Assembly (NCBI GenBank): GCA_017617235.1
Contig: JAFZWQ010000016.1
Span: forward strand, 1 to 57,080
Reading direction: 5' to 3'
DNA from: Bacteroidaceae bacterium
GTDB taxonomy: Bacteria; Bacteroidota; Bacteroidia; Bacteroidales; Bacteroidaceae
DNA: 57,080 bases
Shown here: positions 819-15,124 of the stretch, piece by piece
Layout: every line of letters begins with the position of its first letter
Numbering within the stretch: the stretch's first letter is position 1
The notes under the pieces: model-generated
Told to the model about the DNA's origin: nothing
Databases searched by the model: none
Seen by the model: the letters and a program-made list of their open reading frames with translations, nothing else
Made by a program: the position numbers and the translations under genes

Positions 819-3506
819 TCAATCTATATAAAAACGCTTTCTTTCTTCACTCGTCAGTTGACGCGACTTCAATTGTTCCCTTGTATTAGAAATCAGTTCA
901 CCCAACAATGGGAAGTCCCACCAATATATAGCGCCTCCTTTCTCCGTAGAAATGACATATCGACCATCTTGCGAAAAAAATGCAGATTTAGGTTCGGACA
1001 GAACTCCGTCAAATGTAACAATCGTATCCCCATTATGCGTGTCAATAATGATAAGAGGGGTATTTATATCTGCTATTGTTGCCACGAGGTAATTCCCATC
1101 ACAACTACAGGTAATTGAATTTACGATGTCTCTTACTTCCTTTTTCCATTTAATTTGACCATCTTTTACATCCCAACAAATTATCTGTTTATCTTCTCCT
1201 CCAGAAATTAATAGTGAATTATCATTGCAAAAGACAACTGTTGTGATGACGTTTGTATGCCCTTCTAATGATTGTGCCATTTCCCCTGTTTGCACATCCC
1301 AGACTTGCACTTCTCTATCTAATAATCCGACAGCGAGATATTTTCCATCAGGGCTAAACGCAATAGAAAAAACATGATTGGTTGAAGATTTAATATCTCT
1401 AATAACACCCCATTTAACCGCATCCCATATAACTACACTTCCATTAGACAAAGATGCAGCGAGCTTGGTATTATCCGGACTATACACTGCACAAGTAAAT
1501 GCATATTTACCTTCGACCACCGACTCCGACTTCAACTGATATAAATGTTTATACGATTTTGCATCCCATATAGACACCGTTCCATCAGCAGACGCTGAAG
1601 CCATTTGCCGTCCGTCCACACTATATGCAATAGATGTAATAATGTCCTCATGCGCCTTAATTCTTTTCTCACAACTCCCAGAAGAAATATCCCATATCGC
1701 CATTTCTGCTTTTTCGTATCTAGAACCAATACTAGTTACTAATTGAGTTCTATCCGAATTGAGTGCGGCAGAAACCAAAGGCGATTCGTCTATTGCAATC
1801 ATTTTAATACAGGATGGCAATGTCTCCGCTACAACAATAGTATTATCCAATGCTTCCATCGCAATGTAATTGCCAAAAGTATCAAAATGCGCGTTTTTAA
1901 TTATTACGTCTGATATAACATCACCATTAATACATTTTTTCTTCGCGATATCCCAGATATATATCAAGCCATTGTCATGTACGGTAATAAGTCTACTTCC
2001 ATTATCGTGGAATGCTATTGATACTATTCCGCCTGAAGTCTCGCCTGTTTCCTCGTTTACATTAGATTCCCACTCTATTGTTTGAACTTGTTTAAGACTC
2101 GGTAGCTCCAATATTATAATATTACTTTTGATCGGTGTAGAGACAAAAAATGCCATATATCGGCTATCTGCACTAAATATAGCCTGAGTTTTATCCACAT
2201 ATTCTTCGGCATTTTTGTCCACATTGTTCTTTACATGCGCATCATTCTCTAAATCCCAAAGGATAAAACCCTTATCTGTCGCAGTTAACCTAAACCGACC
2301 ATCGGGACTATCTGTAATTCTATAAATTGGATCATCTAATTGAATTGTAGAAGAAGTGCCATTTTCAAAGTCCAAAACGCACATTTCACCCTCAAGAGTA
2401 GAAATGACCAATTGTCTGCCATTTGGAGTATATTCTATGGAACTAACCGATTGTATATGCGCATCATGAAATAATTCATTTGCTTCATATATCCATGTTT
2501 GCTTACCAGAGACGACATCCCACGATGCGATAGTCTCATCAGCAAAAAATACCACCACGTTGCCGTCATCAGGTGAGAATGTAATACATCTCCCAAATGG
2601 ATGCCGACAAGCAATTTGATTAACAACCCTCCCTGTTCTCACATCCCAAATCCATATTGTGAAGTCATTAGCCACGGACGCCACTAGTTTCCCGTCTGAA
2701 CTAAACGCTACATCCTCTATGCTAAGTTTGTGTCCTCGCAGCATTACTTTATGTTTGAATGACGCTTGACGCAAAGCACGTTCAGCCTCAACCACATAAG
2801 GACGATCCGGATCGCTAAGTTCTTTTGGCAACACCTCCAAAGACAATAATTGTGCTAAAACGGAGTCCTCATTTATGCCACATGCCTTTTCGGCAACAAA
2901 ACGAGATTGCATTCGTTGGAATCGCTCTATTTCTTCTCGTTTCTTTCGTTCTTCTTCTGCTTTATCATGTTCGTATCTATTCCATAGTTCATTAAAAGAA
3001 ACGTTCGGTAATAGCCCAGCAATAACCTTGATAAATGCCTTATCTCGGCCACTCTCCTGAACATTTCCACCTATGCGTTCTTCTATACCCTGCAATTGGT
3101 GCAACTGGCTTGGGAAGCATTCTTTTTCTTCATTTTGCGCATATGGAGTACCTTCTACAATAAACGGGAAAATTTGGTTAACATTATTTATTCCCTTATT
3201 CTTACCGATTTCTATAAAGTCTGAAATTTCTTTATTAACCCATACCGATTTTGCAGAGTTTGGGGAACAAATTACAATTAAGTTGGCCGAGTTTTCTAAA
3301 GCTTCATGTATCTGCTGAGGAAGATTTCCTGCTTTAAGTTCATCTACATCTCTGAAAACGGGTTTAAAACCTTTAGGGAGGTCCTCACGACCATTTAAAG
3401 TAGAAGGTAAATGGTAATACTCCATTTCGTGCTGAAACCATATAGCCCATTCTTCATCTTCTCTCTTATAACTGATGAAAGCAAAGTATTTGTTTTTTGT
3501 TCCCAT
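819..3506 (-). CDS. TIR-WD40 protein, last gene of the TIR/RyR/MscS unit
   Basis: 895 residues. An N-terminal TIR domain (about 6-150) begins YFAFISYKRED and contains SVWVNKEISDF, in which Glu93 aligns with the catalytic glutamate of NAD-cleaving TIRs (SARM1 has WVHKEI). A charged helical linker (about 180-200, EEERKKREEIERFQRM) leads to a long C-terminal WD40 region (about 250-875) with at least ten visible W-D blade ends (IWIWDVRTG, MAIWDISSG, VQVWDVQTG, IICWDVKDG), enough for two beta-propellers. The start lies 12 bases after the RyR gene stop, so it belongs to the same transcript. Known: prokaryotic TIRs hydrolyse NAD or make cyclic ADP-ribose isomers, and fused propellers usually sense or scaffold. 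Inferred: sensor-effector of an immune-type unit. There is no transmembrane segment, so it should be cytosolic. Confidence 0.9.
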   Translation of the reverse strand: MGTKNKYFAFISYKREDEEWAIWFQHEMEYYHLPSTLNGREDLPKGFKPVFRDVDELKAGNLPQQIHEALENSANLIVICSPNSAKSVWVNKEISDFIEIGKNKGINNVNQIFPFIVEGTPYAQNEEKECFPSQLHQLQGIEERIGGNVQESGRDKAFIKVIAGLLPNVSFNELWNRYEHDKAEEERKKREEIERFQRMQSRFVAEKACGINEDSVLAQLLSLEVLPKELSDPDRPYVVEAERALRQASFKHKVMLRGHKLSIEDVAFSSDGKLVASVANDFTIWIWDVRTGRVVNQIACRHPFGRCITFSPDDGNVVVFFADETIASWDVVSGKQTWIYEANELFHDAHIQSVSSIEYTPNGRQLVISTLEGEMCVLDFENGTSSTIQLDDPIYRITDSPDGRFRLTATDKGFILWDLENDAHVKNNVDKNAEEYVDKTQAIFSADSRYMAFFVSTPIKSNIIILELPSLKQVQTIEWESNVNEETGETSGGIVSIAFHDNGSRLITVHDNGLIYIWDIAKKKCINGDVISDVIIKNAHFDTFGNYIAMEALDNTIVVAETLPSCIKMIAIDESPLVSAALNSDRTQLVTSIGSRYEKAEMAIWDISSGSCEKRIKAHEDIITSIAYSVDGRQMASASADGTVSIWDAKSYKHLYQLKSESVVEGKYAFTCAVYSPDNTKLAASLSNGSVVIWDAVKWGVIRDIKSSTNHVFSIAFSPDGKYLAVGLLDREVQVWDVQTGEMAQSLEGHTNVITTVVFCNDNSLLISGGEDKQIICWDVKDGQIKWKKEVRDIVNSITCSCDGNYLVATIADINTPLIIIDTHNGDTIVTFDGVLSEPKSAFFSQDGRYVISTEKGGAIYWWDFPLLGELISNTREQLKSRQLTSEERKRFYID

Positions 3507-3518
3507 ATTACATTTCCA

Positions 3519-3815
3519 TTAATGATCTTTTATGATACAAAAACCTAATTTTATAATCAATTTAATGGTATTAATACATGTATTGCGATCATAATCTTTT
3601 TCCTCCTCGCTCAAATCCTCATAGGGCTTGATACTTGGATGTGTCTTTAATTTGTCATTTCTTTCTTCTCCCAACATCCATCCTTGCAGAACGCGATTAT
3701 AAGCCCACACCTCATGAATATTTTTCGCTAACTTTTCCGTCAGCGACTTCAATTCTTGTGATAAGGCAATATCTGAAACATCGATAGGATGTGGAATATA
3801 GTCGTTTGTTTTCAT
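3519..3815 (-). CDS. Stand-alone RyR-domain protein
   Basis: 98 residues made up almost entirely of one RyR domain (Pfam RyR, first seen in ryanodine receptors). Signature segments are YIPHPIDVSDIALSQEL at the start, LAKNIHEVWAYNRVLQGW in the middle, and THPSIKPYEDLSEEEKDYDRN near the end, all in the family order. The start ATG overlaps the stop of the preceding gene (ATGA, 3812-3815), so translation is coupled. Bacterial RyR domains occur alone, or fused to TrkA-N/Rossmann or channel parts, and are thought to bind a small ligand; the ligand is not established. Next to two TIR enzymes and a channel, a role as messenger sensor is a reasonable inference. Cytosolic, no signal peptide. Confidence 0.9.
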   Translation of the reverse strand: MKTNDYIPHPIDVSDIALSQELKSLTEKLAKNIHEVWAYNRVLQGWMLGEERNDKLKTHPSIKPYEDLSEEEKDYDRNTCINTIKLIIKLGFCIIKDH

Positions 3816-4939
3816 GCTCTTTCATTTTTAATAATTGTAGGGATACTAAGCATCAAAAAACTATCATACTTTAAATTATCTGGATCAATTCTAAGCAAGT
3901 CGGACAAGGAACAAATATCAATATGTGCTGGATCTTTTACTTTGCTCTTAAGTTGCTTACGATATTGTGTTTTTTCTTCTCCAAATAGACAATCATCCGT
4001 AAGACGCTCTTGCTCATTAAGTGGACGATAACCCATAATTAGTTTTTCTGAGACCCACCGGGCATGTTCGCTCATACATAATGCACTATTAAACGTCTTC
4101 CAATTGTCAATCTTCGTATTGCTTTTACTATAATATTGTTCAATAGCTTTGTACCGAGTTTCAAAACAATCTGAGCAGAAAATATTAGAAAGGCTTTCTT
4201 TGATAACATTAGTATTATATTTCACTTCCTTTGGTATTAATGGTGTTATTCCCCTTCTTATTTCTCTGTACTGGAAAATATTCAACGCTAATGAATAGCG
4301 TTCCACATCATGAATATCTTCATATGGCAGATTGTCAATTTCAGATCCAACATAATACAATCTTTGTGTCCATATAGCCCGGCGAGTATCTATAGAAAAT
4401 ATCTGTTGTGAATCATGAGAATCACAAAATGCCTTGACTTCATCCGGAGTAATCAAATATTCAAAATCGCCACTTATGCTCGGACAAGTTTTGACGATCT
4501 CTATTTCGATGTCAATATATGAATCTTTATTCCTCGGCTCTTTGTCCTCAATAGTGAGACTACAATATTTAGGCAGATTGCAGAGATATTCCTCTTTTTG
4601 AATTATATCCAAAATATTCGGATTGTTGGAGATGATCGTGATGCTTGTTCGTTTGCGACCTTTTATATCAGGAAAATTCTCATTATAATTTAAAAAATGG
4701 GCATACAAAGCTAATTGACGAACTACAGAAAGCATTAAGCCACATTCATTATCCACCATAACGATCGGGTGAAAATGATGCACATCACCGGGAAGGAAAG
4801 CAATATGGCTGAACTTGTTTAGCACGAATGCTCGTGCTTTGTACCAATTGGCAACAATCTCCGAGTCGAACGCTTCCCCATTCTTTCGCTTTAAATACTC
4901 AAATGGTTGTTCTAAATATTTTGCAGAATGATTTTTCAT
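3812..4939 (-). CDS. Protein with divergent RyR-like C-terminus and possible degenerate Rossmann core
   Basis: 375 residues. The C-terminal third contains SEHARWVSEKLIMGYRPL, then DPAHIDICSLSDLL and LKYDSFLMLSIPTI. This follows the RyR pattern of a W-containing helix, a gap, H-x-x-x-C/P-Y-x-x-L, then Y-D and a final hydrophobic helix, so I read it as a divergent RyR domain. The N-terminal two thirds (HFHPIVMVDNECGLMLSVV, TSITIISNN) alternates predicted strands and helices and may be a worn TrkA-N-type Rossmann domain, known in other bacterial RyR proteins, but no clear GxGxxG is seen. The stop overlaps the RyR gene start and its start overlaps the MscS stop, both by 4 bases. Function unknown; inferred partner of the 98-residue RyR protein. 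Confidence 0.65.
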   Translation of the reverse strand: MKNHSAKYLEQPFEYLKRKNGEAFDSEIVANWYKARAFVLNKFSHIAFLPGDVHHFHPIVMVDNECGLMLSVVRQLALYAHFLNYNENFPDIKGRKRTSITIISNNPNILDIIQKEEYLCNLPKYCSLTIEDKEPRNKDSYIDIEIEIVKTCPSISGDFEYLITPDEVKAFCDSHDSQQIFSIDTRRAIWTQRLYYVGSEIDNLPYEDIHDVERYSLALNIFQYREIRRGITPLIPKEVKYNTNVIKESLSNIFCSDCFETRYKAIEQYYSKSNTKIDNWKTFNSALCMSEHARWVSEKLIMGYRPLNEQERLTDDCLFGEEKTQYRKQLKSKVKDPAHIDICSLSDLLRIDPDNLKYDSFLMLSIPTIIKNERA

Positions 4940-6012
4940 ACAGATCCCTCCTTCTTTTCTTCACTTGTCTCCCTAACTTCAGAACGGCTCTGGAAGAGTT
5001 GCAAGCCGAACCAATCAAGTGAAGTTATGATATGTTCTATGATTTGCGACTGAGACCACTCAAACTCAGGAAGATCATACTTCTTTAAATAGATGTATAT
5101 TTGTAGCGGGGTGCCATGCTCATCCGGATCCATCCAACGCGCTAGCACCCACGGCTTGTGAGATACATCCGGGTGGCTCATTAACCAATGATAAATATAG
5201 AGACGAAATAGTTGAATATTGAGAACACCTTCACGTACTTCATTATCTTGTAAATAATGAGGCCCATCTCCAAGAACTAATCTCTTTCGAATATCTTCAG
5301 CATCTTTCAAAGATATAGGATGAATGAACTTATTGTTGATAGAAAAAGTTTTTATCATTTGACGACCATATGTTTTTCCTTCCGCCATTCTTTGAACATT
5401 AATAAAATGATCGGTAAGAAGAACGGAAGTAGGTAAGGATGATGTAGTTGTATCCCAATTATAAATGGTTACAGTTGTTAATGTTACTCGGCGGATTTCT
5501 CCATCAACGTTGTATTTTGGCACCTGTATCCAATCTCCAATTTTAAGAAGATGATTGATGCGAAGATGCACAAAAGCAGTTATTCCTTTGAGAGTGTCCT
5601 TGTATATCCACCCCAACATGGATCCTATAATAAGAAGGGCAAGATAGTAAGATTTATTCTGGTTAATATCGAAAATAAGTAAGAAACCAATAATCCACAA
5701 GCCGATAGCAAAAAGAATAGTTATTTGGCATCGTGTGAGAGCTTCCTCTTTTTTGAGAAGGCTATAAACGTCGGTTAAAGTAATGCATGTTGAAATAATA
5801 AATATCGTTAGAACCGTAATACATCCTAAATAATATAACTCCGTTGGAGTATCAATTAATTTCCAATATGCTTGGAGCATCAGAAGAATACCAAAACCAA
5901 TAACTATGAGCCATCCTGTCTTCGCTAATGCTGATGGTTTAATAAAAGCCCCTAGAATTTGGCAAAATGAATTTGGGGACGATAATAATCGATTGCTTAT
6001 TCTACTGCACAT
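4936..6012 (-). CDS. MscS-family channel, YbdG-like
   Basis: 358 residues. Four hydrophobic segments lie at about 32-50, 62-80, 96-113 and 122-136 (the last, YYLALLIIGSMLGWIY, runs into the pore-lining part), followed by the MscS beta domain: LLKIGDWIQVPKYNVDGEI, then TLTTVTIYNWDTTTSSLPT. The DGE...NWD...P layout is closest to the YbdG/MscM branch rather than small MscS. The cytoplasmic C-terminal alpha/beta domain is present and the tail is charged. The start overlaps the TIR-Sel1 gene by 11 bases and the end overlaps the next gene by 4. Known: the family releases ions and solutes across the inner membrane. Inferred: in this unit the pore is the likely effector, opened by a signal instead of, or in addition to, tension. 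Confidence 0.9.
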   Translation of the reverse strand: MCSRISNRLLSSPNSFCQILGAFIKPSALAKTGWLIVIGFGILLMLQAYWKLIDTPTELYYLGCITVLTIFIISTCITLTDVYSLLKKEEALTRCQITILFAIGLWIIGFLLIFDINQNKSYYLALLIIGSMLGWIYKDTLKGITAFVHLRINHLLKIGDWIQVPKYNVDGEIRRVTLTTVTIYNWDTTTSSLPTSVLLTDHFINVQRMAEGKTYGRQMIKTFSINNKFIHPISLKDAEDIRKRLVLGDGPHYLQDNEVREGVLNIQLFRLYIYHWLMSHPDVSHKPWVLARWMDPDEHGTPLQIYIYLKKYDLPEFEWSQSQIIEHIITSLDWFGLQLFQSRSEVRETSEEKKEGSV

Positions 6013-9000
6013 ATTTATTACTAATAAAAAGATAATCTTTTAAGGTTGCAGAAAAATCAAACATTGAGCTCTTCAAATCTTTTGTCGAGTCCGAAATATC
6101 CTCTTCTGTTGCTCTTGGAATATCATGTAAAACATTATTTTCTGACATTTCATCTATCACTGCATTTATCGTATCAACTATATAACTACAAGTCCCGTGC
6201 TCTAATTGTATATCAAACTTCAGCAACTCATTTCGAGCATCAATGAATTCGCAATATCTACAAAGCAGGTTCCGAACATCTTGGTCTGCAAATGATTTCG
6301 CTATCTCCGAAAGTTGTTTTACGTTGTCTAAATTCGCCACAACTTCTTGCCATCTCTTCCCATATGCAAAACGAGAAGCGATTAACATCTTCAGGGATTT
6401 TAGACCATAATACAAGGTTTCGTCTATTGAATAGCATACACAAGGAGATTGAATATTAAGAGTTTCGTCTATACTCTGCGCACAAGCTCTTATTTTTAAA
6501 TTCTCATAAGAATCTAACAAGCCTGTGTATGCTGAGAAAAATAATTTGATTTTGGTAGAATTACAGCCCTTTGGAAAAATTGCTTCTGACAAATAATTAT
6601 TTATCTCCCTAATGCTACCCTCCGGGTCATTTTCGTTAATCTCTAACAAATCAGGAAATGAGTTATCAATGACACCAGAAAATATTCTAAAATCTCTTTC
6701 ATTCGAGAAATCCCCAGCCAATATTTTTTCATTGCTGTAATCAGGCCAGATTTCTTGCACGAACTTTTTGAAATATGGGATTTTTGTTATAAATGATATG
6801 TCATTCTCTATGTCTACTATTTCCCTGATGTTCTGTATTATGGAGCTTTCTTTAGGGAATGGTTCTAAAGATAATTTTCTTCCTAAGAGATAGGCATAAA
6901 ATGGTACATATATTATTCCGATAGTAGTATCCGAATGATATTCTTCCAGGAAAGAATCCACTTGTTCATCTATCCAATCCTTCACATTTTCTTTTAAAAT
7001 TTCAATAGCATCTTTGAAGGATTTAAAGCAATCGAAAAATAGAACTACATCTTCCCAAACTAAGATTCTTAACGATCGATAAAGCCAATCAACATAAACT
7101 ACGGATGGCATATTTTTATGCAGGAAACATTCGATAACTCGTTTAGTCTCTTTTCCTGCATATAATTTACCATTAACTATTTTCTCAGACATTGCATACA
7201 TTTTTTGTGGCGATTCGTTTTTGAAATAATCAAATGCATAAATAATTGCATCCCTCTGCCCTTTTTCTGCTGCAGATTCCACAAAATCAATGCCTCTAAA
7301 TGGATTAAAAATATCTCCTTCACCCTCTAATAACAACCGACCATATATAAAAAGACTATCGCAATCTCCGCTATTAGCCCCCATGCGTAAAACTTCATAT
7401 GCATCAGGAATATTCTTTAACGTATCATAAGTGATTTTTTCTTCACCCTTTCCATTCTCAATTAATAATAGTTTGAGCAAGTATTTAACAGATTCCACAT
7501 CTTGCAATCTTACCGACAGCTCCAAGTCGCGTTTTAAATCCGTTAAATTATAGTTATTAGGGTGATAATTATAAACAAGATACAACTTTGCGAGACCTTC
7601 ATATCCGGTTCCAAACTTATTGATGCTCTGAGAATAATAATCCCAGGCCTTCATAAAATCTTTACGGTCTTCGCTCAAACGGGCAAGTACTTTGAACGAT
7701 ATAGAATCATTTTTCAAATAGCCCTTTAACGCGTATCTTTCTGCTTCTTCAGCTTTTTCACTCAGCAAAAATAAAACTGCGAGTTTGCCCCATGCCTTAT
7801 TTTCTTCACGTTTTGCTGCTTCATTATACCAAACTTCGGCTTGCTTTAGATTTTGTTCACAATAATAAAAGTAGTCCCCCATCACAGTATAGCCTCCTTT
7901 TATCTGCCTGTCAACCATTTTTGAGGCTATCTCTTGCGCCTTTTCGTATGTTCCTTCTTTAGCATATTTCTCGAACAAAAGGCTAAAGCAAGAATCTATC
8001 CCCATTTCAACCCCCTTTTTAAAATACTCTTCGGCCGCAATACTATTCTTTTCAATATCGTTGCCACCATATAAGTACAATTGTCCGAGATAACGACAAG
8101 CAAGACCATTTCCCTTTGCCAATGCAATTTCGTAATACCTTTTCGCAAGGACGTCACTCTGAGGCACCCCAATCCCCCATCCGTAACATATTCCCAATTG
8201 GAGATACGCCTCTGAAGAATCGTATTTTCTCATTGCATTCTTGAGATATTCAATAGCTTTCTCTTTTTCTGTACCCATTGAATAATACTTAAAATGCATA
8301 AGTAGCTCTGCATACCCTTCTCCCTCATCTGCTATCTTATTGACATCCTCCCAAATATTATCATCTAAAAATCGTGAGTTCTTGCAATTCCGTCTGGCGA
8401 TTTCAATTAATTTGTCTGCGGCAGCCTTATTTCCATTTTGCGCAGAACAAAGAAAGGCAAGAAAGGCCGCCTTATCATCACCTGAATCCAGAAGTGCTAT
8501 TCCATTGTCGTAATCAAAATCAAATTCATTACTTTGATCTATTTTGGCCAATGGCTTTTGGATTTCAACGCTAGTGACGACACGTCCAAGCAATTGCTGT
8601 ACATTCTTAAGCAATAAAGGGAATTTCTCTTCTGGATGCGGGTATGCAGTCACAATATGTAGGTCATCCAGACGCATACGCAAGCCATTACTTATAGAAA
8701 GTTCAGAGATTGCAAAAGGAATAATTCTCTTATTCTGTTTTTCCGCATAATTAACCTCATGCTTTACCCACTTTGCTTGCAAAGCAGCATCATTCAGCAC
8801 AACCACCACACAACGAGAGTGTTCTATGGCATACACAATCTCATCATCGTAATCTTTACCGGCACCCGTATTATCTAAATTACGCGGGGCATACCAGCAC
8901 TTGATGCCGTTTTCTTTTTCAAACCAATTCGCCAATTTCTCAACGAAAGGAAGCGAAGATTCTCTATTGTGACTTATAAAAACATCAAATAAATTAGTCT

Positions 9001-9022
9001 TTGAAGATATAATGTCCTGCAT
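6002..9022 (-). CDS. TIR-Sel1/TPR protein, first gene of the TIR/RyR/MscS unit
   Basis: 1006 residues. An N-terminal TIR domain (about 11-150) starts LFDVFISHNRES, has CWYAPRNL and DEIVYAIEHSRCVVVVL, and keeps the catalytic-type glutamate in KWVKHEVNYA (Glu89). From about 165 to 480 it carries Sel1/TPR repeats (YLQLGICYGWGIGVPQ, ACRYLGQLYLYGG, AAEEYFKKGVEMG). From about 500 to the end it is all-helical without a recognised family. Known: this TIR2 class is common in bacterial defence proteins, and TPR-type scaffolds near TIRs have been proposed to handle NAD-derived signals. It opens the five-gene unit, probably under its own control since a hairpin terminator (9103-9132) lies upstream. No canonical promoter was found in 9023-9102. 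Confidence 0.9.
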   Translation of the reverse strand: MQDIISSKTNLFDVFISHNRESSLPFVEKLANWFEKENGIKCWYAPRNLDNTGAGKDYDDEIVYAIEHSRCVVVVLNDAALQAKWVKHEVNYAEKQNKRIIPFAISELSISNGLRMRLDDLHIVTAYPHPEEKFPLLLKNVQQLLGRVVTSVEIQKPLAKIDQSNEFDFDYDNGIALLDSGDDKAAFLAFLCSAQNGNKAAADKLIEIARRNCKNSRFLDDNIWEDVNKIADEGEGYAELLMHFKYYSMGTEKEKAIEYLKNAMRKYDSSEAYLQLGICYGWGIGVPQSDVLAKRYYEIALAKGNGLACRYLGQLYLYGGNDIEKNSIAAEEYFKKGVEMGIDSCFSLLFEKYAKEGTYEKAQEIASKMVDRQIKGGYTVMGDYFYYCEQNLKQAEVWYNEAAKREENKAWGKLAVLFLLSEKAEEAERYALKGYLKNDSISFKVLARLSEDRKDFMKAWDYYSQSINKFGTGYEGLAKLYLVYNYHPNNYNLTDLKRDLELSVRLQDVESVKYLLKLLLIENGKGEEKITYDTLKNIPDAYEVLRMGANSGDCDSLFIYGRLLLEGEGDIFNPFRGIDFVESAAEKGQRDAIIYAFDYFKNESPQKMYAMSEKIVNGKLYAGKETKRVIECFLHKNMPSVVYVDWLYRSLRILVWEDVVLFFDCFKSFKDAIEILKENVKDWIDEQVDSFLEEYHSDTTIGIIYVPFYAYLLGRKLSLEPFPKESSIIQNIREIVDIENDISFITKIPYFKKFVQEIWPDYSNEKILAGDFSNERDFRIFSGVIDNSFPDLLEINENDPEGSIREINNYLSEAIFPKGCNSTKIKLFFSAYTGLLDSYENLKIRACAQSIDETLNIQSPCVCYSIDETLYYGLKSLKMLIASRFAYGKRWQEVVANLDNVKQLSEIAKSFADQDVRNLLCRYCEFIDARNELLKFDIQLEHGTCSYIVDTINAVIDEMSENNVLHDIPRATEEDISDSTKDLKSSMFDFSATLKDYLFISNKYVQ

Positions 9023-9102: not shown

Positions 9103-9132
9103 TACGGCAGAGTAACATGTTACCCTGCCGTA
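9103..9132 (-). terminator. Hairpin terminator separating the small genes from the TIR unit
   Basis: TACGGCAG (9103-9110) pairs with CTGCCGTA (9125-9132) and the middle GTAACATGTTAC (9112-9123) is itself palindromic. Read on the minus strand the hairpin is followed by a T-rich stretch (ACCTTTTATT), as in an intrinsic terminator. It lies just after the stop of the 53-residue gene. Confidence 0.6.
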
Positions 9133-9690: not shown

Positions 9691-9840
9691 TCAACACAGA
9701 TAAATATTGTAGTTTTACATCATCTATTAACCAAATTTCTTAGCTTCTATCAAGTTTAATAAAACATGCAGTTCTTGGGGCGGTAAGAATGTCGGATTAA
9801 GAATAATAATTGCCTGAATGTTTCCAGAATCTTTGTTTCT
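9691..9840 (-). pseudogene. Coding debris after the PP2C gene, including a KptA 3'-end remnant
   Basis: Directly after the PP2C stop, in the +1 frame, 37 codons are open to TAA at 9727-9729 (RNKDSGNIQAIIILNPTFLP, then PQELHVLLNLIEAKKFG) with no start codon of their own. Overlapping its end, 9691-9736 aligns to the last 46 bases of the kptA gene (10591-10636): by hand about 34 of 46 positions match, with one extra base that breaks the frame. The rest of 9511-9690 is AT-rich and holds nothing that I recognise apart from the leader element. Either old gene debris or a +1 extension of PP2C (see findings). Confidence 0.45.
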
Positions 9841-10516
9841 AAAGTTTTACGACAACAGCTGTTATATTATCAGTCCCACCTTTTTCATTAGCCCTAGAAA
9901 TTAGGCGGTTACAGATACTTTTTGATGAAAGTCGTAATGATAGGATTTCTATTATCTCTTTTTCGTCTAACATCTTCCAAAGTCCGTCGGAACAAAACAG
10001 AAGAGTGGTATCCGCCTTAAGTCGTTTTTTTTGAGCTTTGCAAAAAGGAGTTTCAGGCATAATAGGCCGCTTCCCAATATAATTCTTGACCAATCTTCCT
10101 TGGGCTTCATCGCGTGTCAGAAGGTCCAACTGTCCATCTTGCAGAGTATAGATTCGTGTATCTCCAATATGTACGAAATGCAAGCACCTGTCTTTGATAT
10201 TTATGACCCCGCCACTCATTACACAGCCCATTTCACGATATTTGGGAATTGCACGTTGATAATAAATCACATTATTATTGGTTTCTGTGACAGCTCGCTG
10301 GAGACATTCAGAAAGATTCCATACAGGAAAGTCCTCCAGATGACTAATCATCGTTTTATGAGTAATCTCAGCAGCAACATCTCCTCCCCAATTACCACCA
10401 ATACCATCGATGGCAGCACACAACAAATGAGTATCATTCCATATCGACTGGGCGATAAACGTATCTTCATTATGCTGTCTCAGACGTCCAATGTCTGTTT
10501 TTCCGTAATAAGTCAT
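9839..10516 (-). CDS. PP2C-family Ser/Thr protein phosphatase
   Basis: 225 residues, a single compact PP2C domain. Metal-binding and signature motifs are in order: RLRQHNEDTF (Glu17-Asp18), AAIDGIGGNWGG (Asp37), HFVHIGDTRIY, LLFCSDGLW and GGTDNITAVVV at the very end. These motifs match the bacterial Stp/PrpC type that removes phosphate from Ser/Thr of proteins using two metal ions; DGIGG replaces the commoner DGMGG. No partner Hanks kinase is visible in the window. It lies 75 bases after kptA on the same strand. The stop codon context is CTT TAG A, with open +1 frame beyond it. Likely role is signalling inside the island; target unknown. Confidence 0.92.
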   Translation of the reverse strand: MTYYGKTDIGRLRQHNEDTFIAQSIWNDTHLLCAAIDGIGGNWGGDVAAEITHKTMISHLEDFPVWNLSECLQRAVTETNNNVIYYQRAIPKYREMGCVMSGGVINIKDRCLHFVHIGDTRIYTLQDGQLDLLTRDEAQGRLVKNYIGKRPIMPETPFCKAQKKRLKADTTLLFCSDGLWKMLDEKEIIEILSLRLSSKSICNRLISRANEKGGTDNITAVVVKL

Positions 10517-10590: not shown

Positions 10591-11085
10591 CTAACACGGA
10601 TAAACATCGTAAATTACATCATGTGTAAGCCAAATGCCATGGGGTAATCTATAGAAACATCCACCATTGTCGATGACTTTTTGTGTATCAATAGCTAATA
10701 CAACAGGCTCCCCATGACGCCTACCAACTTGAATAGCGTCTTCTTTAGTCTCTGACAGATGGACATAATTACGATTCATCCCTTTCAAGCCATCCTTTAA
10801 GATGGAATCTATGGACCGCTTTGCTGTTCCATGAAAAAGGGTTGCTGGTGGGATAGCTGCGTTCCACTTAATACGCACATGGTTGGAATGTCCGTAGAGT
10901 GCTCGTACATACTTAAAGTCTGCCGAGAACTCGTAACGATGCTTTACGTCGCTGCTGACAATTTGCCTCAAGTTTTTTTCTGTATATCCAAACTCTTTAA
11001 CCAGTTTCTCAACAGGAATCCAACCCTGTTCATTTGGCACATCAGAATGCCGTAGTAGATATGATAGTTTCTTAGAGGTACCCAT
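10591..11085 (-). CDS. kptA: RNA 2'-phosphotransferase, KptA/Tpt1 family
   Basis: 164 residues, slightly shorter than the usual 180. It transfers a 2'-phosphate from RNA to NAD, giving ADP-ribose 1'',2''-cyclic phosphate and nicotinamide. The Arg-His-Arg-Arg set typical of the family is visible: LSYLLRH (Arg12, His13), YVRALYG (Arg61) and VGRRHGEP (Arg122/123), plus LFHGT and YVHLS of the ADP-ribosyltransferase-like lobe. The N-terminal winged-helix part is trimmed but present (GWIPVEKLV). Bacterial KptA has no known tRNA-splicing substrate and is often found in mobile or defence regions. Here it adds a third NAD-using protein to a window segment with two TIRs. Start at 11085 gives the full LRH motif. 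Confidence 0.92.
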   Translation of the reverse strand: MGTSKKLSYLLRHSDVPNEQGWIPVEKLVKEFGYTEKNLRQIVSSDVKHRYEFSADFKYVRALYGHSNHVRIKWNAAIPPATLFHGTAKRSIDSILKDGLKGMNRNYVHLSETKEDAIQVGRRHGEPVVLAIDTQKVIDNGGCFYRLPHGIWLTHDVIYDVYPC

Positions 11086-12975: not shown

Positions 12976-13745
12976 TCCAGATATGCTTTTCTACGTTCAC
13001 GTGCTACAGGCACTTGCTCGCCGTTACTGGTGCCGCCCTTGATTGCCCTGTTCAGCGGCACTTTCAGCACCGCCTCCAAACGATCTTTCTGGTTGCTAGT
13101 TTCCTTGATGTTGTTGATGTTCAGTATGACTCCCCGACTGACACGGAAGAATATCGCGGGGTCCAGCATATGCTCCAATTCTTCGATGGTGTAGTTTATC
13201 GTATACGTAGCACCCTTAATGGTTATCAAATCAGTGGTCTTATTATCGGCATAAATAGCTGCCACGCCTTTGTCTATTACATATTTATATTTTTTACCCG
13301 CGTGTAAAAGGAATCGTTTCTTCCATCGTTTTTCCATGTAGCTGCGGCGCAGTTGGTCGAAACGTTCCGAGTCCGCAGTCAGTCCGGCATTGTGCTCAAA
13401 TTTCCGTAATGCAGTCTCCAACTCCGCATCGCTAATAGGCTTCAGCAGATAATCCACGCCGTTCACTTTGAAAGCGCGCAAAGCATACTCGTCGTAAGCA
13501 GTTGTAAAGATGATGGGCAGGACTGTCCCCGACTGGTCGAACAGGTCGAAGCTAAGTCCGTCCTCCAGGCGGATGTCCGAAATCAGCAGGTCGCATTCCG
13601 TCTCATGCAACATCAGCGCCCCCTGCTCCACCCCCTGTGCCCAGCCCACCAGCTGGTAGTCGGGACGCAGACGCTCCATCATTCGCCTCACGTCCTCGTA
13701 GGCCAGTCGTTCATCCTCGATGATAATGTATCGCATGTCTGTCAT
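12960..13745 (-). CDS. LytTR-family response regulator
   Basis: 261 residues from the chosen start. The receiver domain (1-125) shows YIIIEDE, the acceptor Asp57 in LLISDIRLEDG, FTTAYDEYAL and the LLKP lysine. The LytTR DNA-binding domain (about 160-255) has FFRVSRGVILNINNI. I prefer ATG at 13745 (MTDMRYII) to 13763 because AGGGA lies 8-10 bases before it. LytTR proteins bind direct repeats about 21 bases apart; several such repeats lie in front of genes in this window (13936-14030, 15190-15223, 25162-25195), so target genes may be close by. Partner of the kinase at 11926-12975. Confidence 0.93.
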   Translation of the reverse strand: MTDMRYIIIEDERLAYEDVRRMMERLRPDYQLVGWAQGVEQGALMLHETECDLLISDIRLEDGLSFDLFDQSGTVLPIIFTTAYDEYALRAFKVNGVDYLLKPISDAELETALRKFEHNAGLTADSERFDQLRRSYMEKRWKKRFLLHAGKKYKYVIDKGVAAIYADNKTTDLITIKGATYTINYTIEELEHMLDPAIFFRVSRGVILNINNIKETSNQKDRLEAVLKVPLNRAIKGGTSNGEQVPVARERRKAYLEWLDM

Positions 13746-13935
13746 GATATAGATTCCCTGCAAATGTAGCGAAACATCCCGAATCCGTCAAATCTTTCCT
13801 GGCTTTTCTTTCATTCCCGACCTTAAAAAGCATTACAGGCCCGAGGGCAACGTGTTGGCTCCAACCCTGCAACCTGTCATTTCCCCAGCTCCGGCACGTC
13901 GTTCTCTTGGAAACAATGTATTGTTATTGAACATG

Positions 13936-14030
13936 AACCGCAGTCTTAAAATCTAAGACCGCGGTCATAATGTTGTTGAACCGCGGTCCTAAAATTAAGA
14001 CCGCGGTCTTATGAAAGAAAGACCATGGTT
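13936..14030. repeat. Five palindromes GACCGCGGTC at two-turn spacing
   Basis: Units lie at 13936-13945 (AACCGCAGTC), 13957-13966 (GACCGCGGTC), 13979-13988 (AACCGCGGTC), 13999-14008 (GACCGCGGTC) and 14021-14030 (GACCATGGTT). Start-to-start distances are 21, 22, 20 and 22 bases. The array ends 13 bases before the -33 element of the HU-like gene. The preceding part of the spacer (13764-13935) shows nothing that I can name. Confidence 0.75.
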
Positions 14031-14043
14031 CTTTTATAAAAAC

Positions 14044-14074
14044 TTTGTATTGTCGAAAGAAATACTTAACTTTG
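14044..14074 (+). promoter_or_regulatory. Promoter of the HU-like gene
   Basis: TTTG at 14044-14047 and TAACTTTG at 14067-14074 are separated by exactly 19 bases, an ideal Bacteroidota promoter. It lies directly downstream of the palindrome array and 42 bases before the start codon at 14116. Confidence 0.8.
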
Positions 14075-14115
14075 CATCGTGAATAACAATGTGTCACTCT
14101 GTAACACGCTTAACT

Positions 14116-14571
14116 ATGGCTATAAACTACGCACTCGTACCTATTACGACAAACGCCCGAAACAAACGTGCGAAATGGACCATACATGCTGCAGCGCAAG
14201 GCAAGGAAACGCTGACGACACGCGACATTGCCGAGCATCTCGCCAGCCATAACTCCCCCTTCTCCGTGGGCACCATCATGGGAATATTAGAGGACATGCA
14301 GAAATGCATCCTGGAACAACTCCAGAAAGGAAACCATGTAAAGTTGGACACGCTGGGAACTTTCTACACCACCCTGAAGAGTCGAGGAGCCAATAGCAGT
14401 GAGGAGTGGTCGGACGACTACGTGGAGCGCATCAACCTGCGTTGGAAACCCTCGAAACGAATGACGCGCGACATGCAGGGAACTCCACTGCGCATGGTGG
14501 CCAACCGTGCCGAGCAGCACCGCGCGCTGAAAAAAATGGCCGAACAAGCCAACGAAGAAATCAATTCATAA
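14116..14571 (+). CDS. HU/IHF-like DNA-binding protein
   Basis: 151 residues from MAINYALVP; an in-frame ATG nine codons upstream is possible but lies very close to the promoter. The fold follows the Bacteroidota HU-related family: N-terminal strand INYALVPIT, helical part LTTRDIAEHLASHNSPFSVG, the dimer helix GILEDMQKCILEQLQKG, the HU-type turn NHVKLDTLGTFYTTLKSRG and a C-terminal extension rich in basic residues. Members bend DNA or act as nucleoid proteins; they differ from canonical 90-residue HU by longer ends. The palindrome array in front of its promoter could be an autoregulatory site. Cytosolic. Confidence 0.85.
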   Translation: MAINYALVPITTNARNKRAKWTIHAAAQGKETLTTRDIAEHLASHNSPFSVGTIMGILEDMQKCILEQLQKGNHVKLDTLGTFYTTLKSRGANSSEEWSDDYVERINLRWKPSKRMTRDMQGTPLRMVANRAEQHRALKKMAEQANEEINS

Positions 14572-14590
14572 AGGCGAAAACGCTAAATTC

Positions 14591-14608
14591 AAATAACCCG
14601 GGTTATTT
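14591..14608. terminator. Palindrome between convergent genes
   Basis: AAATAACCCGGGTTATTT is an 18-base perfect palindrome ending in T's on both strands, between the HU-like gene and the DKNYY gene, and it includes the stop codon of the latter. It may serve as a bidirectional terminator. Confidence 0.45.
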
Positions 14609-15124
14609 TAACTTGCGGCCGCGGTAGTAGGCATCGAAGGCGTCTTCGGCATAGCCGTCGCGCGTGTATTTAAAGGAGGAAGCCACGGCGCCCTCTACCT
14701 TGTCGCCATAATAGTACACATTGAAGGCATCCTTGGCATAGCCGCCACCCAGCTCCTTGAAAGTACTGGGCATTGCATCTAGTTTGCGGTCACCGAAGTA
14801 CACGTTCCACTTTGTCTTGTAATAGCCTCTGTTCTGCACCGGTTGTTCACCGTTATGACGGCTCCAGACGCTGCGCTCCTTCAGGCGGAAGTAGCGCGGG
14901 TCGACATTCACCAGCACACGTCCCATCATATACACATTATTCCGGTCCTTGGCATATCCACAACCCAGGTCCTCGAAGCTTCGCACATCGGCATTCACCA
15001 CCAGTTCGCTACCGAAATACACACGACCGTGGTCCGTCTCGTAACGTTGGGCATTTGCCGTCACGGCCCATCCTATCATTGCCACCAACAAGAGGGTTTT
15101 CTGTAAAAAATTAGTCTTTTTCAT
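14603..15124 (-). CDS. Secreted DKNYY-repeat protein
   Basis: 173 residues from the MKKTNFLQK start, chosen over an ATG 12 bases upstream because it begins a proper signal peptide (ending TANAQ). The mature part repeats the DKNYY unit: LGCGYAKDRNNVYMMGR, then GGGYAKDAFNVYYYGD, then DGYAEDAFDAYYRGR, with VYFGSEL/VYFGDRKL between. DKNYY proteins are periplasmic or surface proteins of unknown function in Bacteroidota and other Gram-negatives. Its promoter shares a direct-repeat architecture with the lipoprotein at 25257, suggesting a common regulator. Confidence 0.85.
   Translation of the reverse strand: MKKTNFLQKTLLLVAMIGWAVTANAQRYETDHGRVYFGSELVVNADVRSFEDLGCGYAKDRNNVYMMGRVLVNVDPRYFRLKERSVWSRHNGEQPVQNRGYYKTKWNVYFGDRKLDAMPSTFKELGGGYAKDAFNVYYYGDKVEGAVASSFKYTRDGYAEDAFDAYYRGRKLK

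Follow-up and report, generated by a model that had tools for sequence, protein, structure and literature searches.

A five-gene cassette of a Bacteroidaceae bacterium that may couple TIR nucleotide signaling to an MscS-type channel through a ryanodine-receptor-like sensor

The 57,080-nucleotide stretch of Bacteroidaceae bacterium DNA analyzed here (GenBank assembly GCA_017617235.1, contig JAFZWQ010000016.1, positions 1 to 57,080; hereafter, the window) carries, at 819-9022, a cassette of five minus-strand open reading frames (ORFs), which encode, from the upstream end, a TIR-Sel1 protein (1006 aa; 6002-9022), an MscS-superfamily channel (358 aa; 4936-6012), a protein designated RyRL (375 aa; 3812-4939), a standalone RyR-domain protein (98 aa; 3519-3815), and a TIR-WD40 protein (895 aa; 819-3506). 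With a probability of roughly 0.57, we read this cassette as a TIR-driven, Thoeris-like nucleotide signaling system, in which RyRL would sense a messenger of the ADP-ribose (ADPR) type and gate the MscS channel, and in which the standalone RyR protein would co-sense, buffer, or erase that messenger. A preceding sequence-only reading had proposed the core of this idea, namely that a RyR domain binds the product of a TIR and that the MscS pore opens as a result; the ligand residues, the MscS-RyRL pair, the co-location of TIR and RyR genes, and the homology of RyRL speak for it, but the five-gene set did not prove to be fixed. The five ORFs and their junctions (from the low-coordinate end, a gap of 12 bases and then overlaps of 4, 4, and 11 bases) were confirmed as described there, and the assignments of TIR-Sel1, MscS channel, RyR, and TIR-WD40 were backed by Pfam matches.

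RyRL had been described as a divergent RyR-like protein. This description was upheld by way of a profile chain and residue conservation, but not by a direct Pfam match (no match was obtained for RyRL at E<=0.1 in Pfam, PADLOC, or NCBIfam). By profile comparison, RyRL matched the second half (columns 361-738; E 1e-23, probability 99.6) of an alignment of TM-RCK-RyR proteins (alignment A5). These proteins begin with several hydrophobic segments, as judged by simple hydropathy, followed by a middle part of Rossmann/RCK-like character and, at the C-terminus, an 'EHNRW' region; outside the RyRL family, they often adjoin RyR genes of the same taxonomic order. At E<=1, five of the eight A5 members matched Slo-like_RCK (best, 4.6e-4) and four matched the Pfam RyR family (best, 8.5e-5); the RyR profile A7 (21 sequences) matched A5 at 1.3e-5 and the second set, A6, at 6e-10. 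Because the direct comparison of the RyR and RyRL profiles was weak (E 0.34 and 0.031), the assignment of RyRL to RyR is transitive. Since it is the second half of A5 that is matched, RyRL resembles the sensor half of a channel-like TM-RCK-RyR protein, detached from the rest, and, since only the C-terminal half of that family is represented, MscS seems to take the place of the lost pore. RyRL is a predicted soluble sensor with a Rossmann/RCK-like N-terminal part (residues ~47-185; 4385-4801, minus strand) and a divergent RyR-like C-terminal part (residues ~284-375; 3815-4090, minus strand). The AlphaFold 2 (AF2) model of RyRL (pLDDT 76.6, pTM 0.83) gave no match in Foldseek at E<=0.001. Sequence searches of the PDB returned nothing at E<=0.01 with A5, and 11 rows with alignment A3 (E 0.017 or worse), among which there was no RyR or RCK chain. 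No relative of RyRL was found on plasmids in 72,556 records.

The phage RyDEP residues H75, W78, H100, and D117 bind or cleave the cyclic ADPR isomers 2'cADPR and 3'cADPR (2'/3'cADPR), with H75 and D117 as the catalytic dyad (PMC13232231). Their equivalents are H34, W37, H59, and D76 in the standalone RyR protein and H292, W295, H339, and D359 in RyRL, the latter four being invariant in an 18-sequence alignment. In a hand-chosen alignment of 13 sequences (RyDEP, three RyR proteins, six channel C-termini, and three RyRL C-termini), five columns (H, W, H, L, and D) were invariant, and four of them correspond to the above RyDEP residues. By this alignment, the RyRL C-terminus (3815-4090) carries the complete H-W-H-D set of putative ligand residues. 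The standalone RyR gene (3519-3815) is assigned to the RyR family by its PF02026 match (4e-33; 114 bits, cut-off 27.4) together with the same predicted ligand residues, and the solved chains matching its product include animal RyR and bacterial 3nrt.

Further RyR proteins were noted in the course of the searches. Those encoded on the unannotated human-fecal 'Bacteriophage sp.' contigs MT837259.1 and MT836850.1, of which the phage origin is putative, are 54-56% identical to the cassette RyR and thus closer to it than the DyoEdafos RyDEP (30.8%). Within the phylum, RyR occurs in 20 genomes of genus g240 (L063, L065, L067, and others), 19 of which have at least two matches, many in one ORF of ~900 aa. 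In four genes, the RyR domain is fused behind an N-terminal part of ~200 aa (L051, 8871-9959; L052, 8535-9536; L098, 15868-16848; L100, 5801-6856), which we presume, by resemblance, to be peptidase-C39-like; two of these genes (L098 and L100) are in MscS-RyRL loci.

The MscS gene (4936-6012) is placed in the MscS superfamily by the PF00924 (MS_channel_2nd) beta domain (1.2e-9; 38.5 bits, cut-off 20.2) and a predicted pore helix region. Among solved structures, its best relatives are YnaI (E 0.0013), with an alignment that covers pore and beta region, and a channel entered under the name MscM (E 0.04); the superfamily in the label 'YbdG-like MscS' was thus right, but YbdG is a loose name for a channel whose best solved relative is YnaI. 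A scan of genome contigs found relatives of RyRL, 44-68% identical, at 18 loci in 17 genomes (L092 and L093 are from one assembly and are identical in sequence there). The source titles read Bacteroidales, Bacteroidia, or Prevotella, with one reading only 'Bacterium', and the hosts in those titles naming a source are ruminants (water buffalo, sheep, red deer, yak, and goat). In a six-frame hidden Markov model (HMM) search, MscS was directly upstream of RyRL in all 18 loci, as in the window. With ATG starts assigned at 17 loci (L092 left out), the MscS-RyRL junction allows a 4-base overlap in 12 and a 1- or 8-base overlap in four, and has a 60-base gap in one, L106, which is the nearest relative. 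Full-length RyRL relatives (E<=1e-100) are present in 3 of 295 genomes of the order, and the MscS profile A4 matched the same three genomes at E<1e-150, the next best genome being at 6.3e-53; as A4 was built in part from these three, high scores are to be expected for them, but they still stand clearly apart from the other copies. An MscS of any kind (E<=1e-20) is present in 215 of the 295 genomes. This MscS would thus be a dedicated partner of RyRL, of a distinct subfamily found with it.

The TIR domain of the TIR-Sel1 protein (TIR_2 2.7e-17 and Sel1 2.5e-11 in Pfam) spans residues ~1-145 (8588-9022, minus strand), with E89 in WVKHE; that of the TIR-WD40 protein (WD40 5.9e-50; PF13676 3.1e-13 at window 3147-3479) spans residues ~1-175 (2982-3506, minus strand), with E93 in WVNKE. 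E89 was aligned with the WxxxE of the solved bacterial TIRs 7uwg (E 0.009) and 7uxr (E 0.0021), which we take to be AbTIR and AaTIR, and E93 with RUN1 (E 0.029) and SARM1 (E 0.15), both weakly. The aligned Glu of the solved TIRs is presumably the catalytic residue. Thus, the proposal that both TIRs keep the Glu of NAD-cleaving enzymes is borne out by both motifs and by the alignment of E89, but less so by that of E93. Of 33 aligned TIR domains from the RyRL loci and wider loci (three duplicate loci were dropped before the alignment), 32 retain the Glu, the sole exception being a gap. The TIR-Sel1 protein also has a ThsB_TIR match (PF08937, 2.4e-7), and the TIR parts matched the ThsB-type and other TIR models of PADLOC-DB weakly. 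For the TIR-WD40 protein, no TIR family was among the best 25 of the 64 Pfam families listed, and the PF13676 match was obtained in the genome TIR scan. The cassette thus has, as expected of a Thoeris system, TIR proteins with a putative NADase Glu.

Of the genomes searched, 25 of the 295 from the order and 27 of the 395 from the phylum had a PF02026 match. Among the 25 RyR genomes of the order, 20 have a TIR_2 match, and 12, including that of the window, have a TIR within 5 kb of RyR, as compared with 0.14 expected by uniform placement (maximum, 3 genomes in 20,000 simulations; this control ignores the clustering of defense genes). In the host genome (2.54 Mb, 50 contigs, 85.5% complete), the sole RyR match and both TIR_2 matches are in the cassette. 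The direct neighbor of the standalone RyR gene at 16 loci (the window included; L091-L108 and L046, where the RyR gene was uncalled, left out) is RyRL in three and a TM-RCK-RyR protein in ten, and it was from these same neighbor proteins that A5 and A6 were built. TIRs are also located by the TM-RCK-RyR relatives (e.g., L043, L044, and L056). We put forward, with a confidence a little short of even odds, a wider reading, in which RyR-repeat receptors would gate bacterial ion channels on TIR-made cyclic ADPR, in cis on TM-RCK-RyR proteins elsewhere in the order, and here split off and coupled to MscS, with the standalone RyR as a co-sensor or eraser.

Of the 18 RyRL loci, 10 have a TIR (L091, L092, L093, L098, L099, L100, L101, L103, L104, and L106) and seven a standalone RyR (L096, L098, L099, L101, L105, L106, and L107); a RyR fused to another part is present in L098 and L100. 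The TIR partners differ between loci: TIR-NACHT in L106 (TIR_2 score, 26.3 bits, just below the cut-off, in one scan and 30.0 bits, above it, in another), Macro-TIR in L104, a TIR with weak coiled-coil-type matches in L100, a TIR with no second named domain in L098 and L103, and, in L093, a TIR adjoining a CHAT protein. Note that a contig end lies within 10 kb in six of the RyRL loci (L091, L092, L094, L096, L099, and L104). In L098 (genome G690; 941-21101), all 10 TIR_2 matches of the genome, some of which share an ORF, are located around MscS-RyRL (C1:53.6-76.8 kb), and this cluster contains a PARP-type ADP-ribosyltransferase gene (13594-14640).

Under the Thoeris-like reading, an infection or stress cue would act via the Sel1 and WD40 parts and switch on the TIR NADases, which, as the retained Glu suggests, would convert NAD+ to an ADPR-type messenger such as 2'cADPR or 3'cADPR. 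The messenger would be bound in the RyR-type H-W-H-D pocket of RyRL, as is suggested by the conservation with RyDEP, and RyRL, as a detached RCK-RyR half, would open or close the co-encoded MscS pore, to which the homology and the strict pairing point. The action of MscS would lead to ion loss or depolarization and then to a growth stop, and the 98-aa RyR protein would join the sensor, or buffer or hydrolyze the messenger as an off-switch. RyRL, rather than just any RyR protein, is likely the gate sensor; the role of the small RyR could be to buffer or degrade the signal instead, by analogy with the phage RyDEP proteins, which act as anti-Thoeris proteins by degrading or sponging 2'/3'cADPR (PMC13232231). 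It is also conceivable, if quite unlikely, that the TIRs are killers by NAD depletion, that RyR and RyRL serve immunity or tuning by sequestering or hydrolyzing the cADPR by-product, and that MscS handles the osmotic consequences. This would accord with the activity of RyDEP and with the dyad equivalents of H75 and D117 kept in both RyR and RyRL, but, of the other RyDEP homologues tested, six of eight bound signals and none hydrolyzed them (PMC13232231). Furthermore, a channel gene accompanies RyRL in trans in all 18 loci, and the relatives of RyRL have hydrophobic segments in cis, so that a receptor role fits RyRL better than that of an eraser.

In the RyRL tree (L092 left out; the window row counted as TIR), the window pairs with L106 (100/100), and the TIR label requires 2 changes, as compared with 6.2 for shuffled labels. 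A 98/96 branch has seven rows on one side, all with a TIR but with differing architectures, and four of the eight TIR-lacking rows form a single near-identical clade. Relatives of one gene are located just upstream in 8 of the 18 loci (L091, L094, L095, L097, L099, L101, L102, and L107) and ~7 kb upstream in L092/L093; where scanned (L009, the same stretch as L101), this gene is DUF4301. The content at the shared site is MscS-RyRL alone (L094, L095, L097, and L102), MscS-RyRL-RyR (L107), or MscS-RyRL-RyR-TPR-TPR-TIR (L099 and L101), which would look like the variation expected of a modular cassette that gains or loses a TIR arm. A 626-aa transketolase with weak SLOG/lysine-decarboxylase matches in its second half borders the cassette in L101 (16409-18289), L099 (9678-11558), L107 (11442-13322), and L091 (8058-9938); in L094, L095, and L097, which are without the TIR arm, only the transketolase half was matched.

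Several results weigh against the Thoeris-like reading. The RyRL C-terminal domain, when folded alone, gave no RyR match in fold searches (the second of which compared 22 chains). No TIR was found in 8 of the 18 RyRL loci (L094, L095, L096, L097, L102, L105, L107, and L108); among these, the contig of L096 ends ~3 kb downstream, and a TIR is present 3.9 kb into a different contig of its genome, G003. The variation at the shared site also allows a TIR-independent use of MscS-RyRL. The five genes as one fixed unit were rejected, as only MscS and RyRL are constant across the 18 loci; the sequence-only reading had made its system idea depend on all five being kept together in other genomes, and this held for the MscS-RyRL pair but not for RyR or for the TIRs, which are near in 7 and 10 loci, respectively, the latter with differing architectures.

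These data bear on two other explanations. First, MscS-RyRL may be a self-standing osmotic or metabolic channel gated by a ligand (NAD(H), ADPR, or adenine nucleotides), with TIR and RyR genes collecting at its sites as hotspots and not through any signaling to it. We regard this as improbable, although it deserves some weight: five of the 18 loci (L094, L095, L097, L102, and L108) have MscS-RyRL with neither TIR nor RyR nearby, eight share the upstream gene at a site of variable content, and animal RyR repeats bind adenine-containing ligands (PMC13232231). However, half of the TIR-lacking loci belong to the one near-identical clade, the seven rows beyond the 98/96 branch all have TIRs of differing architectures, and TIRs also stand beside the TM-RCK-RyR relatives (L043, L044, and L056). 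Second, the five genes may form an ordinary operon of unrelated stress proteins, with RyRL being no relative of RyR, as the missing direct Pfam match and the negative domain-only fold search would allow; the profile chain, the residue pattern, and the MscS-RyRL pairing in 18 of 18 loci make this very improbable.

As for the flanking sequence, a terminator-like hairpin with a 13-bp stem (9103-9132, minus strand) may separate the cassette from the upstream genes; it was found by a consensus scan only and is a weak candidate (6 sites found, 6.3 expected). Just upstream are genes for a PP2C-type phosphatase (9839-10516, minus strand) and a KptA/Tpt1 RNA 2'-phosphotransferase (10591-11085, minus strand), the latter of a family that is another user of NAD+. 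Both were considered as cassette parts and left out, as no relatives were found with phmmer in 25 other loci (L091-L108 were outside this search).

Literature searches found 'RyR domain' and 'TIR domain' together only in PMC13232231, which, in the part accessible to us, refers to a RyR-like protein of bacteria solely for its structural homology. In a survey of NAD-ADPR systems (PMC9503650), a term search of the main text gave no RyR, and the papers citing the TIR-system survey preprint (Yirmiya 2025), as far as their accessible parts go, describe no RyR partner (the preprint itself was outside the search). In PADLOC-DB 2023, no model matched MscS, RyRL, or RyR at E<=0.1, so that the comparison with PADLOC suggested by the sequence-only reading yielded just the weak TIR matches given above. 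New here are the homology between RyRL and TM-RCK-RyR proteins, the retention of the H-W-H-D residues, the strict MscS-RyRL pairing, and the co-location of TIR and RyR. Together, they suggest that, in bacteria, a RyR-like sensor may open a channel under attack. TIR signaling systems are distinguished by their messenger and effector. If the reading is correct, a RyR-domain receptor gating a channel would add a receptor and an effector of new classes to TIR immunity, and would mirror, in prokaryotes, the disputed link between cADPR and the ryanodine receptor in animals. Such cassettes are small and amenable to work in laboratory strains, and would offer a simple bacterial system for the long-argued question of whether RyR repeats bind cADPR isomers. 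The reading would also help to explain the RyR-domain enzymes and sponges in phages (PMC13232231).

Among known systems, Thoeris is similar in that a TIR with an NADase-type Glu is accompanied by an effector part and by a protein predicted to hold a pocket for ADPR nucleotides. The cassette differs in having no SIR2-SLOG or Macro-TM effector, the proposed receptor being RyR-type and the effector MscS, and in having a pair of TIRs, one joined to Sel1 and the other to WD40. The Pfam matches of the five proteins included no SIR2, SLOG, or Macro (for TIR-WD40, in the best 25 of 64 families). A STALD search of the genome gave no match, but the controls likewise gave none anywhere, and it was thus uninformative. 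Because a ThsA-type effector was looked for in the five genes and not found, we do not class the cassette as Thoeris. Pycsar and CBASS share the logic of nucleotide, receptor, and effector, but the five genes include no cyclase or CD-NTase (no nucleotide cyclase was found in them with Pfam, PADLOC, or NCBIfam). The view that ThsA-like, CBASS, and Cas genes are absent holds for the five genes, and ten further window proteins had no PADLOC match at E<=0.001. On a Priestia plasmid (L109, NZ_CP128553.1; 3656-11865), the gene for a RyR 54% identical to that of the cassette seems to share an operon with genes for a PycTM effector and for a TPR-S protein whose annotation reads nucleotide cyclase and whose Pfam cyclase match is below the cut-off; a TIR protein is encoded on the opposite strand. 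RyR may thus also join Pycsar-type systems. The phage RyDEP proteins have the same RyR domain family and the same H-W-H-D residues as the cassette proteins, but the cassette RyRs are host-encoded beside TIR and channel genes, and one of them has a Rossmann/RCK-like part attached and is linked to a channel gene. The TM-RCK-RyR relatives are similar to the RCK-gated channels of the CASTOR/POLLUX/Slo type in their Slo-like_RCK matches (5 of 8 at E<=1) and, presumably, in a pore region resembling those of CASTOR/POLLUX; the difference is that a RyR-like C-terminal domain is added in the relatives and that the cassette pore is MscS, encoded by a separate gene. Finally, the cassette channel shares the PF00924 beta domain with the MscS superfamily (YnaI and MscM/YbdG) and differs from it in forming a distinct subfamily found with RyRL and in the proposed ligand sensor in trans; it presumably also resembles the bCNG channels, the ligand-gated members of the superfamily.

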